From Terriglobia bacterium (GTDB lineage Bacteria; Acidobacteriota; Terriglobia; UBA7540): DNA of 45,404 bases. The position numbers and the translations under genes are program-made. Location: assembly GCA_020073545.1 (NCBI GenBank), contig JAIQEZ010000026.1, positions 1 to 45,404 of the forward strand, in the 5' to 3' direction. The notes beneath the pieces were generated by a model. It did no database searches and had not been told where the DNA came from. It was given only the letters and a program-made list of their open reading frames with translations. Below are positions 1,586-7,148 of this stretch, piece after piece. Each line of letters begins with the position of its first letter. Position 1 is the first letter of the stretch.

Positions 1586-4500
1586 ATGAGCAACGGGTGG
1601 AAGTGTGTCTGCGCCAGCGCGCTGGTGATACTGCTGTTACCTGTAGCGCTTTGTGCGCAGGAGACAACGGCGAGCATTCGGGGCACCGTGTTAGACCCCA
1701 GCGGCGCGCGTGTGCCGTCAGCCACGGTCCGCGCGACCCAGGTAGAAACCGGATTTACGCGCAGTGTCGCGAGCGGTGCAGAGGGCAATTACCTGCTGGT
1801 GCTGCTGCCGGTCGGGCACTATCGGCTGGAGGTTGCGGCGCCGGGATTTCGCAAGTACGTACAGGAAGGCATCAGCCTGAGCGTTAATCAGGTGGCGGTG
1901 GTGCCTGTGCACCTCCAAGTCGGCTTGCCGGAGCAGACCGTGCAGGTCAAAGCGGATGCCGCTCTCCTGGTCACCACGAACGACTTGGGCGAGACGATAC
2001 ACGGCCGGGAGATTGTCGATCTCCCGCTTAACGGCCGCAACTTCTCGCAGCTCGGTCTTTTGCTGCCCGGGGCTGCGCCTCTCACCCAGGGTTTGCAGAG
2101 GGCTGGTGGCTCGCTGCGCGGCGGCCAGTCCTATGCTGTGAACGGCATGCGGCCGGAGTCCAACCAATTCCTTGTGGACGGCGCCGAGAACTACAACTCC
2201 ATAAATGCCGGCTTCGTTCTGAAGCCGCCGCCCGACGCTATCGCGGAATTCCGGATCCTGACGAACACGGCATCCGCCGAGTTCGGTCACAACGCCGGTT
2301 CCAACACCAACATCGTTACCCGCTCAGGATCGAACCAGGTCCACGGGGACGTTTACGAATTCCTGCGCAACGACGTGCTGGACGCTCGCAATTTCTTCTC
2401 GTCCAGCGTAGAGCCCCTGAAGCAAAACCAGTTCGGCGGCACGCTGGGCGGCCCGCTCCGGCACGACAAGACTTTTATCTTTGGTTACTACGAGGGCTTT
2501 CGCAACCGACAGGGGGAAACGCAATTGACGACCGTTCCCACCGCGGTCGAGCGGCAGGGTGACTTCTCCGCCTTGTGCTCCAGCTACAGTCCGGAGGGCT
2601 TTTGTACCGATCCGAATGGTACCCAGTTGGTCAACGTGTTCGCTCCGGTCCCGCAGCCTTACCCGTTCAACCAGATCCCCTCGGACCAGATCAGTGCGAT
2701 CTCGCAAAACCTCCTGGCGTACTACCCGCTGCCCAATGCGCCCGCCTACAGCCCGAACGCTTTCGTCACCACGCAGGAGTTGCGGAACAGTTCGGACCAG
2801 TTCGGCGTCCGCCTCGATCACTACCTCTCCTCCCGCGACACACTTTCCTCCCACTATCTTTTTACCAACGGTTCGCAGTTGGACCCGCTTTCCATCGCGG
2901 GAGCGAACGTGCCCGGCTTCCCGGTAGGAGAGGATTTTCACGCCCAGAACGCCACCCTGGAGGAAACGCACTCGTTCTCACCGGCAGTCGTGAACGTCAT
3001 CCGTTTTTCCTTCCTGCGAAACAAGTTTCTCTTTGGCGAAGCGGCAAACCATACGCCTATTTCCTCGCTGGGATTCCAGTACTCACCCACGCTGGCGACC
3101 CAGGCTGGTCCTCCCTTTGTTGAAGTCGGCGGCTATGCTTCGATCGGCAATCCCATTACCGGGCCGGCAGACGACTATCAAAACACGTATTCCTTGACGG
3201 ACTCGCTGGCCTGGGTTCGCGGCAAACATGAACTCAAGTTTGGCGGCGAGTTCCAGCGCGACCAACTGAATACGCTGCTGGGCATCGCCTCGAATGGTTT
3301 CTTCGTCTTTGCCCCGGTTCCCATCGTTGGCAACGCCTTCGCTGACTTTTTGATTGGGAAGCCGGTGGTCTTTTTGCAGGGCGGGGGTCAGCTCCCTCGG
3401 GGTTTGCGCGCCAGCAATTACCACCTCTACGTTCAGGACAGCTACAAGCCCACTTCGGGCCTGACGCTGAATATCGGGTTACGTTACGAACTGCCGCAAC
3501 CCTACAGCGAAATCCATAACCAGGCGGCGTTGTTCGTGCCGAACGCGCAATCGCGCGTCATTGCGAGCGCGCCGTCGGGCCTGCTTTATCCCGGCGACCC
3601 GGGCGTGGGGCCTGGCCTGATTCCGAGGGAATACCGCGCCTTTGCTCCACGGGTGGGCTTCGCTTGGGATCCGACCGGAAGCGGCCGGTGGGCGGTGCGG
3701 AGCGCTTACGGCATTTTCTATGACCCTTACTACAACGGTGAGGGTGGTCCACTCCAGGCGCCGGAAAGCGCGCCGCCTTGGTTCAAGACGATTCAAGAGG
3801 TGTTTCCCTCCAATTTTGCCAATCCGCTGCCCGCGGGAATCGATCCGTTTGCACCTACCTTTGCCGGCGCACAGACGCTGACCCTGCTCACGCTCGATCC
3901 GCGCCTGCGTTTGCCCTACGCGCAGGACTGGAACTTTACGGTGGAGCACGCTTTTGGCCAGACTTGGTTGCTGGACGTCGGCTACGTCGGCACCAAAGGC
4001 ACGAAGCTGCCGCGCTTCATCGAAAGCAACCCGGCCACGCTCTGCTCCACCTTGCCGGTGAGCGAACAGGCTTCCTGTATTAGCGGCGAACAGCAGAACG
4101 TCAACCTCTTCCGTCCCCATTCGGGTTGTACCCCGGCGGACCCCGGCAATTGCCTCTACGGGTCGATCGGCCTGATCTCCGGCACCGCCGACTCCAATTA
4201 CCATGCGCTCGAAGCCAGCCTGCGGAAGCGCTTCGGGCATGGTTTGGCGTTCTTGACATCCTATACGTTTTCGAAAACGCTCGACGACGTCTCGAGCTTT
4301 AACCTGAGCGGCTCTTCCCCCCAACTTGTCGCCGGCGAAAACGACCTCGCGCAAAATCCTCGGGATTTGGCAGCGGAGTACGGTCGCTCACTTTTCGATG
4401 CCCGGCATCGGTTGGTCTTCAGCTATCAGTGGCAGCTTCCGTTCTGGAAGGACTCCCAATACTGGTATCAACGCGCTTTCGGCAACTGGCAGTTGAACGG

Positions 4501-4940
4501 CATCTTTTCGACTGCAACGGGCACGCCCTTCACGGTTTATGATTCCAGCAACCCTTCTCTTCAGGGCCAGGCGCCGGAGATCGCGGGGGTTTGTCGGGGA
4601 CCGCCCGAACCTGGTGGGGAATCCCAACAACGGACCCAGGACCGCGAGCGCATGGTTCAACACCCAGGCGTTCCAGCGTGTCACGCAACTGGGCACCTTC
4701 GGCAACGCCGGCCGGAATATCGTGCAGGCTGCCGGCCTCGCCCAATGGGACTCTGCCGTGTCAAAGAATTTCCGCCTGACGGAATCCAAGACCCTGCAGT
4801 TCCGGGGGGAATTTTTCAATGTCCTGAACCGGGTGAACTTCGGCTTGCCAAACGACGACATCAGCTCGCCCACCTTCGGCCAGATTCAGACGGGGCTGCC
4901 CCCACGTCAGATTCAATTCGCGCTGAAGTTCCTGTTCTGA
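1586..4940 (+). CDS. Oar-like TonB-dependent receptor with carboxypeptidase-regulatory-like domain, frameshifted near the 3' end
   Basis: An outer-membrane transporter of the large acidobacterial TonB/Oar class, about 1,117 residues when repaired. Start: GAGGAGGA at 1569-1576 precedes the ATG, followed by a signal peptide ending near ALCAQ. Residues about 25-115 form a CarboxypepD_reg-like beta sandwich (IRGTVLDPSGARVPSATV). The plug follows (LPLNGRNFSQL, then VDGAENYNS), and then a long beta barrel rich in alternating aromatic residues. The frame is good to about 4585. A run of five G (4585-4589) then shifts it: removing one G restores GFVGDRPNLVGNP and continues to a typical barrel end, QFALKFLF, with stop at 4938-4940. 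Unrepaired, translation runs out of frame to 4960. Either an assembly error or a real inactivating mutation is possible. Substrate is unknown; this class is often linked to glycan or peptide uptake. Confidence 0.9.
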
Positions 4941-4984: not shown

Positions 4985-5362
4985 ATGAATCGTCGAAGAA
5001 TCTTGGTCTTGAGAGTCACGCTGGCCGTGCTCATGGCGGCTGGCACGCACGGGGCCTGGGCTGAGAGCCAGCCGGCGACCATCAAAGGTTACGTCCTGGA
5101 CTCCGCATGCGCGTTTACCAAGAACCTGAAGAAACCGGTGAGTGCGGAGTGCGCGGTGACCTGCGCGAAGGCAGGATCGCCGCTGGTGATCCTGGCGGAC
5201 AACGGCGTGATTTACTGGCCGATCTCCGACACCACCCCCGCTCGCGGTCAGAACGAGCGGCTGATGGAGTTTGCGGGCAAGAGGGTGTCGGTCACGGGCA
5301 AAGTCTACCAGCGAGGCGGCTCTTATGCGGTCGTCATCGCCACCATCGAAGCCTTGCAGTGA
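4985..5362 (+). CDS. Small secreted protein, OB-like, of unknown function
   Basis: 125 residues with a strong Shine-Dalgarno sequence (AAGGAGG at 4971-4977). An Arg-rich N-terminus and hydrophobic core ending at GAWA form a Sec signal peptide. The mature part begins with IKGYVLDSACAF, then a cysteine pair in ECAVTCAKAGSP, then LVILADNGVIYWPI and FAGKRVSVTGKVY. This pattern (a GxVxDS strand, CxxxC, and a KxVxVTGxV strand) recurs in small secreted proteins of Acidobacteriota and suggests a compact beta barrel with a possible disulphide or metal site. It lies 44 bases after the receptor and 54 bases before the AhpD-like gene, so the three may be co-transcribed. No function is assigned. Confidence 0.8.
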   Translation: MNRRRILVLRVTLAVLMAAGTHGAWAESQPATIKGYVLDSACAFTKNLKKPVSAECAVTCAKAGSPLVILADNGVIYWPISDTTPARGQNERLMEFAGKRVSVTGKVYQRGGSYAVVIATIEALQ

Positions 5363-5416: not shown

Positions 5417-6052
5417 ATGGATCCCATCTTCCTGAAGGACGTTGAGGCGGCAGGCAAGGCCGGGCCGGCAGGCGCGCAATTCGCGGCCATGGAGCAGGCC
5501 GGAATTCCCGTGCCGCAGATTCTTTATCTCTTCGCGTTCAAACCACGCATGACCGATCACCTTTCGCGCCTCACGCAGGAATTGATGCGCGGCCCGTCGC
5601 CTCTGTCGCCCGGCCAGCGCGAACTGATCGCGGCGTTCACCTCGAGCCGCAATCAGTGCCCGTTTTGAATTGGTTCGCACGCTGCGGTCGCGGCGGAATT
5701 GCTGGGCGATGCGGAGAAGGTTGCGGCGGTCCTGAAGGATTACCGCACGGCGCCGATCTCGGAAGCGGAGAAGGCGCTCTTCAAGTTCATCGAGAGAGTG
5801 AATCGCCAGTCCAATACCATCGGCCCGGCGGATATCGCGGAGGTGAAAGCCGCGAGCTGGCCGGAAGAAGCGATCTACGACGCCATCAGCGTCTGCGCGC
5901 TGTTCAATTTCTACAATCGCTGGATCGACGCGACCGGCGTGCAGGACATGCCGGCGCCCGGCTACCAGATGTCAGGACACCGGCTGGCGACGGAGGGGTA
6001 CGCGCAACCGGAAGAAAAAAGCGTGGCGGCGCGCGGCGGAAGAAGAGGCTAA
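5417..6052 (+). CDS. Carboxymuconolactone decarboxylase/AhpD-family peroxidase-like selenoprotein (TGA at codon 84)
   Basis: The frame from the ATG at 5417 (AAGGAG upstream) is open to the stop at 6050-6052 except for one TGA at 5666-5668. The sequence on both sides belongs to one CMD/AhpD protein: PLSPGQRELIAAFTSSRNQC before it, and IGSHAAVAAELLGD after it. In E. coli-numbered AhpD the active site is E118-x11-C130-x2-C133-x3-H137. Here E69, C81, codon 84 (TGA) and H88 have exactly those spacings, so TGA sits where the peroxidatic cysteine belongs. A hairpin 17 bases after the TGA has a GGUC loop like the fdhF SECIS. The simplest reading is a 211-residue CxxU thiol-peroxidase-like selenoprotein. 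AhpD-like selenoproteins are known from metagenomes. The alternative is a nonsense mutation of a TGC/TGT codon. No sel genes are in the window. Confidence 0.75.
5672..5700 (+). promoter_or_regulatory. Candidate bacterial SECIS element
   Basis: Starting four bases after the in-frame TGA, 5672-5676 (GGTTC) can pair with 5696-5700 (GAATT, with two G-U pairs). After a three-base bulge (GCA), 5680-5685 (CGCTGC) pairs with 5690-5695 (GCGGCG, with one G-U pair), closing a four-base loop GGTC at 5686-5689. The loop begins 17 bases after the TGA; in the E. coli fdhF SECIS the same GGUC loop begins 18 bases after UGA. Bacterial SelB reads such a loop directly downstream of the codon. Function is inferred from position and loop identity. 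Confidence 0.6.
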
Positions 6053-6056
6053 GAAT

Positions 6057-7148
6057 CTACCGCCGCCTGCCCGAGGCGGAAGAAGCTCGGCAGAGAGCTT
6101 CGAGTGACGGGGCGCGCGAGGCAATGAAACGCACTCCGCAGTTCTGCACATAGACCTGGCCGGGCATTCCCACGACGCTCAGCAGAATGAAGAGCAAACC
6201 GGTGAGGAGGAGCAAGGCGACGACGCCCAGAAGGATCGTCACAGGATTCCAGGCCCAGGCGAATCCCACCGCGCGCAGCGCCAGGATGACGAGCGCGACG
6301 GCGATGATGGCTCCCGACGACAGACCCATCAGGACCGGAAAGAGAAAGAACAGTACGGCGACGCTGATGCCTATTGACACCACAAACCGCAAGGCGACGT
6401 AGAAGACAAACGTGCCCATGTCGCGGCGCGCCAGTTTCCAGACTTTTCCCCACGCAGCGGGGAACGAGATTCGCTCCGCGTAAATCAGCGGTACCACCAG
6501 GTCGTCCGTCAGGGTGATGATTACCGCGACCAGCAAGCCAACCAGGACCACCACCGCTAAAGCCGTCACGAGCAGCAGTGAGGCAAGCCATGAGGGGCGG
6601 CTTTCCGCGCAGCCAGAACTGAGGTGGGGAAACGACAGCACCGCGACTGCAGAAGCCATCAGCAGCAATGTGCTCAACACTCCCAGCACCCAGAAAAAGT
6701 AGGCGCGACCGAGGGGTTGGAGATTCCTCCAGGCGGGGCCGAGCGCTGCGTCCTGCTTGATGACGGCATCCACCAGCGCAAAGCGCAGCACGCAGCGCAC
6801 GTAAAGCAGGGTGAGCACCAGTCCCAGACTGAGGGTGGCGGCCAGAACGATCAAGCTGAGGTGCTCAGCGATGATGACGCGCGCGCGGAGAAGCATCTGC
6901 GCAGGGTCAACGTCAACCGGCAGGGTGCTGAAGCCCCACCGGAATGCCGCCGTGGAGGTGCCGCCACCCAGAAACATGCATACCACACTCAGCATGATCC
7001 AGCGCCGGCCGCTGAAGGGGCGAAAAAGGAGGCGCAGCGTCTCCCCCCAGGCAGCGGAGAGCGCTTCGATGGGGGAAAGCGCACCTGAGCTGGGCCGGCG
7101 AGCAGGCGCGTAACGGAGGGGTGGAGGGAATTGACCGGCAGCGTTCAA
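6057..7148 (-). CDS. Multi-pass integral membrane protein of unknown function
   Basis: 363 residues. After a soluble, proline-rich N-terminus of about 45 residues (with SPIEALSAAWGETLRLLFRP), six to seven hydrophobic segments follow, roughly at residues 50-75, 93-115, 150-172, 187-215, 245-275, 280-298 and 305-330. Segments LTDDLVVPLIYAE and AWGKVWKLARRD between membrane spans resemble the loops of the acidobacterial/actinobacterial family related to DUF4013 and the glycerophosphodiester-phosphodiesterase membrane domain. No catalytic residues are visible. It is convergent with the AhpD-like gene, with only four bases between the two stop codons, so there is no room for a separate terminator. 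Confidence 0.85.
   Translation of the reverse strand: MNAAGQFPPPLRYAPARRPSSGALSPIEALSAAWGETLRLLFRPFSGRRWIMLSVVCMFLGGGTSTAAFRWGFSTLPVDVDPAQMLLRARVIIAEHLSLIVLAATLSLGLVLTLLYVRCVLRFALVDAVIKQDAALGPAWRNLQPLGRAYFFWVLGVLSTLLLMASAVAVLSFPHLSSGCAESRPSWLASLLLVTALAVVVLVGLLVAVIITLTDDLVVPLIYAERISFPAAWGKVWKLARRDMGTFVFYVALRFVVSIGISVAVLFFLFPVLMGLSSGAIIAVALVILALRAVGFAWAWNPVTILLGVVALLLLTGLLFILLSVVGMPGQVYVQNCGVRFIASRAPSLEALCRASSASGRRR

Follow-up and report, generated by a model that had tools for sequence, protein, structure and literature searches.

Results

Locus and Reading Frame

We analyzed a 45,404-nucleotide stretch of contig JAIQEZ010000026.1 (hereafter the window), from a soil acidobacterium, and found on its forward strand, at positions 5417–6052, a frame of 211 amino acids whose sole internal stop is a TGA at codon 84 and which terminates at a TAA (6050–6052). 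The features of the locus, with the support for each, are as follows:

1586–4940, forward strand: TonB-dependent receptor gene (CarboxypepD_reg, Plug, OMP_b-brl_4), frame shifted near 4590; a recurrent neighbor of the family
4985–5362, forward strand: small secreted Cys-containing protein, 125 amino acids; adjoins only one other relative, L052
5403–5408 (approximate), forward strand: Shine–Dalgarno-like AAGGAG just before the ATG; seen directly in the sequence
5417–6052, forward strand: AhpD/CMD-family selenoprotein gene, selenocysteine (Sec) very probably at residue 84, 211 amino acids; reading frame, profile matches, structure model, and structure matches
5657–5659, forward strand: C81, the likely resolving cysteine of CxxU; invariant across 110 relatives
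5666–5668, forward strand: UGA codon read as selenocysteine (U84); TGA in 92 and Cys in 18 of 110 relatives
5680–5695, forward strand: SECIS-like hairpin with stem CGCUGC (5680–5685), loop GGUC (5686–5689), and stem GCGGCG (5690–5695); pairing conserved in Sec genes only

An initial annotation, made from the sequence alone, had claimed that sequence of one CMD/AhpD protein lies on both sides of the TGA and that the active-site spacing is E-x11-C-x2-(TGA)-x3-H. The coordinates and the content were both right: the spacing in the translated protein is E69-x11-C81-P-F-U84-I-G-S-H88, and two profile matches cross the TGA, that of PF02627 (CMD) at residues 44–124 (1.9e-9) and that of TIGR01926 at residues 26–177 (6.9e-30; 104.2 bits against a cut-off of 81.8). 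The two halves thus belong to one protein. The protein scored below the cut-offs of two further profiles, the AhpD-related (seleno)protein NF041238 (47.2 against 175 bits) and the YciW-related (seleno)protein NF053654 (21.3 against 310 bits). We regard it as very probable that the frame encodes a selenocysteine-containing AhpD/CMD protein with a CPFU site. The enzyme is probably cytoplasmic, since no signal peptide is apparent.

Conservation of the In-Frame UGA

A search of the phylum and a scan of genome contigs gave 110 relatives covering the site. The query of the contig scan carried Cys at residue 84, and its peptide patterns are therefore, if anything, biased toward Cys forms at this position. 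Homologs with Cys or TGA at codon 84, expected for a genuine selenoprotein, were found in number: the codon is TGA in 92 relatives, TGC in 16, and TGT in 2, and neither any other codon at the site nor an additional in-frame stop was seen among the 110. All of them have E69, C81, and H88, residue 83 is always Phe or Tyr, and a TIGR01926-type site, CxxC or CxxU with the Glu and His relay residues, is present throughout. The closest relative, L052, comes from an independent MAG; its protein is 88% identical and carries the TGA at the same codon. The cultured Myxococcus xanthus also has a version with this TGA. Compared with L052, dN/dS is 0.06 upstream of the TGA and 0.11 downstream of it, indicating at the sequence level that purifying selection persists past this codon.

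The stop codon itself, at which a gene caller would split the frame, could be taken as the mark of a pseudogene, that is, of an ordinary Cys gene with a nonsense mutation or of a sequencing error at the TGA. We reject this reading as highly improbable: the identical TGA is conserved in 92 relatives from independent assemblies, the gene holds no other stop or frameshift, and the genome encodes the selenocysteine machinery (see below). The TGA in the independent L052, together with the low dN/dS after it, rules out a sequencing error and a decaying gene; decay and unrelated stop codons in the relatives, which would speak against a selenoprotein, were not found. Near-cognate suppression or a reassigned code with UGA as Trp or Gly would also yield an open frame but is less probable still, and reassignment is rejected, given that 46 of the 110 genes of the family end with TGA as an ordinary stop, that the aligned residue in homologs is Cys and never Trp or Gly, and that tRNA-Sec and SelB are present.

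Some taxonomic labels among the relatives are at odds with the sequences. The contigs of L115 and L122 are labeled as Chthoniobacterales and Cyanobacteria, while their proteins nest among acidobacterial ones and L122 is identical to G167; these contigs are likely mislabeled or misbinned. Contigs placed in Gemmatimonadota and Planctomycetota (L057, L067, and L071) also carry Sec forms, which suggests a wider spread or horizontal transfer. In a distant Cys branch (the L036–L050 region, e.g., L039, L041, and L046), paired matches in the phylum search revealed frequent tandem AhpD-like genes within one genome.

Selenocysteine Machinery

The source genome is a draft of 5.28 Mb in 261 contigs and 95.5% complete. 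Absence of the decoding machinery, which would have weighed against a selenoprotein, was not seen: the genome contains selA (7.4e-142), selB (4.2e-107, over the curated cut-off), selD (4.8e-116), and the tRNA-Sec gene selC (69.1 bits; anticodon UCA, TCA in DNA). Its selD gene (L018, TGA at 1531) is itself a selenoprotein gene with an in-frame TGA in the context AAG-U-AAK.

Of the genomes tested for selA, 14 carry the Sec form, and 13 of these gave a strong match; the one lacking it, G406, holds the copy L115, and its missing selA perhaps reflects incompleteness or misbinning. A selB match over the cut-off was found in all five Sec genomes tested. Searches for the same two genes found neither in three Cys genomes (G217, G359, and G370), while two others (G086 and G396), likewise with Cys at codon 84, retain both. 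The presence of the machinery thus mostly follows the identity of codon 84, and its loss is not the sole route to Cys.

A SECIS-like Hairpin Downstream of the UGA

The hairpin lies directly after the UGA, with 17 nt between the UGA and the GGUC of its loop. The SECIS of Escherichia coli fdhF is likewise placed directly after the UGA and has GGUC in its apical loop, at a distance of 18 nt as read in E. coli genomes; the sequence and length of the stem differ. Folded alone, the window hairpin was no more stable than shuffled sequences (z –0.4 to –0.6), and an Rfam search at the site returned chance-level matches only, so the case for a SECIS comes from the comparison among relatives.

That comparison was clear. 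Across the cells of the six-pair stem, 97% were paired in 77 distinct Sec sequences versus 56% in 18 Cys sequences, and of the 75 distinct sequences from close Sec relatives, 69 formed all six pairs. Permuting synonymous codons within alignment columns gave a mean of 57.4 such sequences, with none of 2,000 replicates reaching 69, and drawing codons from the gene usage gave a mean of 14.6, with none of 1,000 reaching 69; both nulls are uncorrected for relatedness. Paired stem changes are seen among relatives, e.g., CGCUGC/GCAGCG and CACAGC/GCUGUG. In the distant Sec relatives L045 and L051, inspection by eye showed a different stem pairing in another register. The hairpin is conserved in Sec genes beyond the synonymous-codon expectation but not in Cys genes, and these patterns indicate a SECIS-like element, with a G starting the loop and a putative role in decoding. 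With the machinery, the codon-84 homologs, and the hairpin in agreement, the original proposal of Sec at the second position of CxxC is supported, and none of the outcomes that it named as refuting was seen.

Fold and Active Site

We built an AlphaFold2 model of the read-through protein from 48 sequences of the window and the related loci, with U84 modeled as Cys. The model (mean pLDDT 95.2, pTM 0.90) is a single compact all-helical protein in which U84 lies near the start of the helix formed by residues 82–96, and it predicts one confident AhpD fold. The solved structures that come closest, in sequence as well as in fold, are the peroxidase-related proteins 6k40, 2prr, 3c1l, 2oyo, and 2pfx (Z 20–21); they are 21–30% identical to the window protein, and 6k40 has Cys at the aligned site in the one alignment read. 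Next come a Streptococcus AhpD and the debrominase Bmp8 at Z 16.5, followed by Mycobacterium tuberculosis AhpD (Z about 10–11). With the last of these (1gu9 and 1knc), the protein shares the AhpD fold and the E-x11-C-x2-(C/U)-x3-H spacing at 14–16% identity in the structural alignment, with Sec in place of Cys133 and, immediately before U84, Phe in place of His132. We take Cys133 to be the attacking residue of the mycobacterial enzyme, and the label "peroxidatic," given to the U84 position in the initial annotation, would carry over from that enzyme by analogy. The proton relay of M. tuberculosis AhpD consists of Glu118, Cys130, His132, Cys133, and His137 (PMC3141380). E69, C81, F83, U84, and H88 of the window protein align with these five residues; with F83 at the position of His132, its relay would lack an equivalent of that residue.

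The comparison suggests the following scheme. SelB and tRNA-Sec would insert selenocysteine at the UGA of codon 84, aided by the hairpin just downstream in the mRNA. In the protein, U84, activated by E69 and H88 in a relay like that of M. tuberculosis AhpD, may attack a hydroperoxide or an oxidized partner, C81 would resolve the product as a selenylsulfide, and a thioredoxin- or lipoyl-type donor could then reduce it. The recurrent linkage with a TonB-dependent receptor and an MFS transporter (see below) suggests that the enzyme may serve in handling a compound taken up from outside, a further and speculative step.

By analogy with the related enzymes, peroxidase or thiol-oxidoreductase chemistry is the probable function. 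The protein could instead be a selenoprotein without peroxidase activity, acting as a reductive dehalogenase like Bmp8 or as a thiol-disulfide oxidoreductase on a protein partner. Bmp8 has the same fold, and the linkage to receptor and transporter genes fits action on an imported compound; against this, the best structural matches, at Z 20–21, are to peroxidase-related or AhpD proteins, and the E/C/C/H relay of AhpD is retained in full, which makes the alternative unlikely.

Relation to Known Selenoproteins

The AhpD-like selenoprotein with a CxxU motif was originally described from Sargasso Sea data, which yielded 27 sequences (PMC1088965). The GOS set holds 299 of them, with the name "AhpD-like 1" (PMC2398784), and a review table of 2026 lists the CxxU protein under TIGR01926 (PMC13188914). 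The window protein exceeds the TIGR01926 cut-off and has Sec at the same position of the CxxU as this family (COG2128/TIGR01926), and all 48 aligned relatives match the profile at E 0.001 or better. It therefore belongs to a kind of selenoprotein known since 2005, within a clade that is mostly of the Sec form.

The source genome carries a second AhpD-like selenoprotein gene, L132 (G000:C254, gene start at 1498), with a CFYU site and a strong hairpin after its TGA. Its product reaches 171.5 bits against TIGR01926, shares 30% identity with the window protein, and has L051 as its nearest relative (70%). With this identity and the higher score of L132, the canonical TIGR01926 selenoprotein of the genome, the window protein falls in a distinct branch; its clade differs from the canonical form in coming chiefly from soil Acidobacteriota and Myxococcota and in having a subset with TonB receptor and MFS genes as neighbors. 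The initial suggestion of a new subgroup thus stands as regards a clade separate from that of L132, while the family and the CxxU motif had already been described. Our search of the literature, of partial coverage, found no description of this branch.

The close clade of the tree contains 89 Sec and 5 Cys rows, and 4 of the Cys rows group inside Sec lineages. A reduced tree requires two changes between Sec and Cys in all the bootstraps summarized. A single Sec/Cys split is thereby disfavored, although an AU test of one Cys group does not reject it (p 0.066). We favor a repeated change from Sec to Cys within the close clade, the direction of which depends on the rooting.

Gene Neighborhood

Neighbor linkage was recounted with tblastn because some clusters of recurrent neighbors probably represent shadow frames of GC-rich genes. 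Of the 110 loci, 12 have a TonB-dependent receptor gene upstream in the same orientation, no more than about 500 nt away, and five others have a divergent one; at 23 loci an MFS transporter gene follows closely in the same orientation, in most cases overlapping or at most 65 nt away; and both are present at 14. No MFS gene was found beside the window gene. At many loci, the linked receptors are about 47–52% identical to that of the window over most of their length, against 36–37% for its best long paralog within the source genome, which argues for a related receptor lineage rather than any receptor.

The initial annotation placed the gene behind a TonB receptor and a small secreted Cys protein, and both are there. 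As a feature of the family, the small protein did not hold up: it matched no Pfam or NCBIfam profile over the cut-off, and its occurrence beside only one other locus, that of L052, led us to reject it as a conserved partner. The frame change of the window's TonB receptor near 4590 sits in a G-rich stretch, with the C terminus continuing in the ORF at 4539–4940; a sequencing error or recent mutation may account for it. On the other side, a convergent DUF7544 membrane protein gene (6057–7148, reverse strand) lies 5 nt after the selenoprotein gene; among the loci, only L052 shares it.

Discussion

New here are the second AhpD-like selenoprotein within one genome and the recurrence of TonB-dependent receptor and MFS transporter genes beside members of the window protein's clade. 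More tentatively, the clade could represent a separate orthologous subfamily of soil selenoproteins, with Sec ancestral, the Cys forms arising as later losses, and the enzyme working with a particular TonB-dependent receptor and an MFS transporter in an import-linked redox cassette; we see this combined reading as possible rather than probable.

Standard gene callers split or truncate the gene, so that a redox enzyme conserved in abundant bacteria of the soil is likely to be overlooked or called a pseudogene. With Sec and Cys versions that are closely related and occur with and without the decoding machinery, the clade offers a test case for the loss of selenocysteine, and the recurrent TonB receptor and MFS transporter genes nearby may help to trace what AhpD-like selenoproteins act on.
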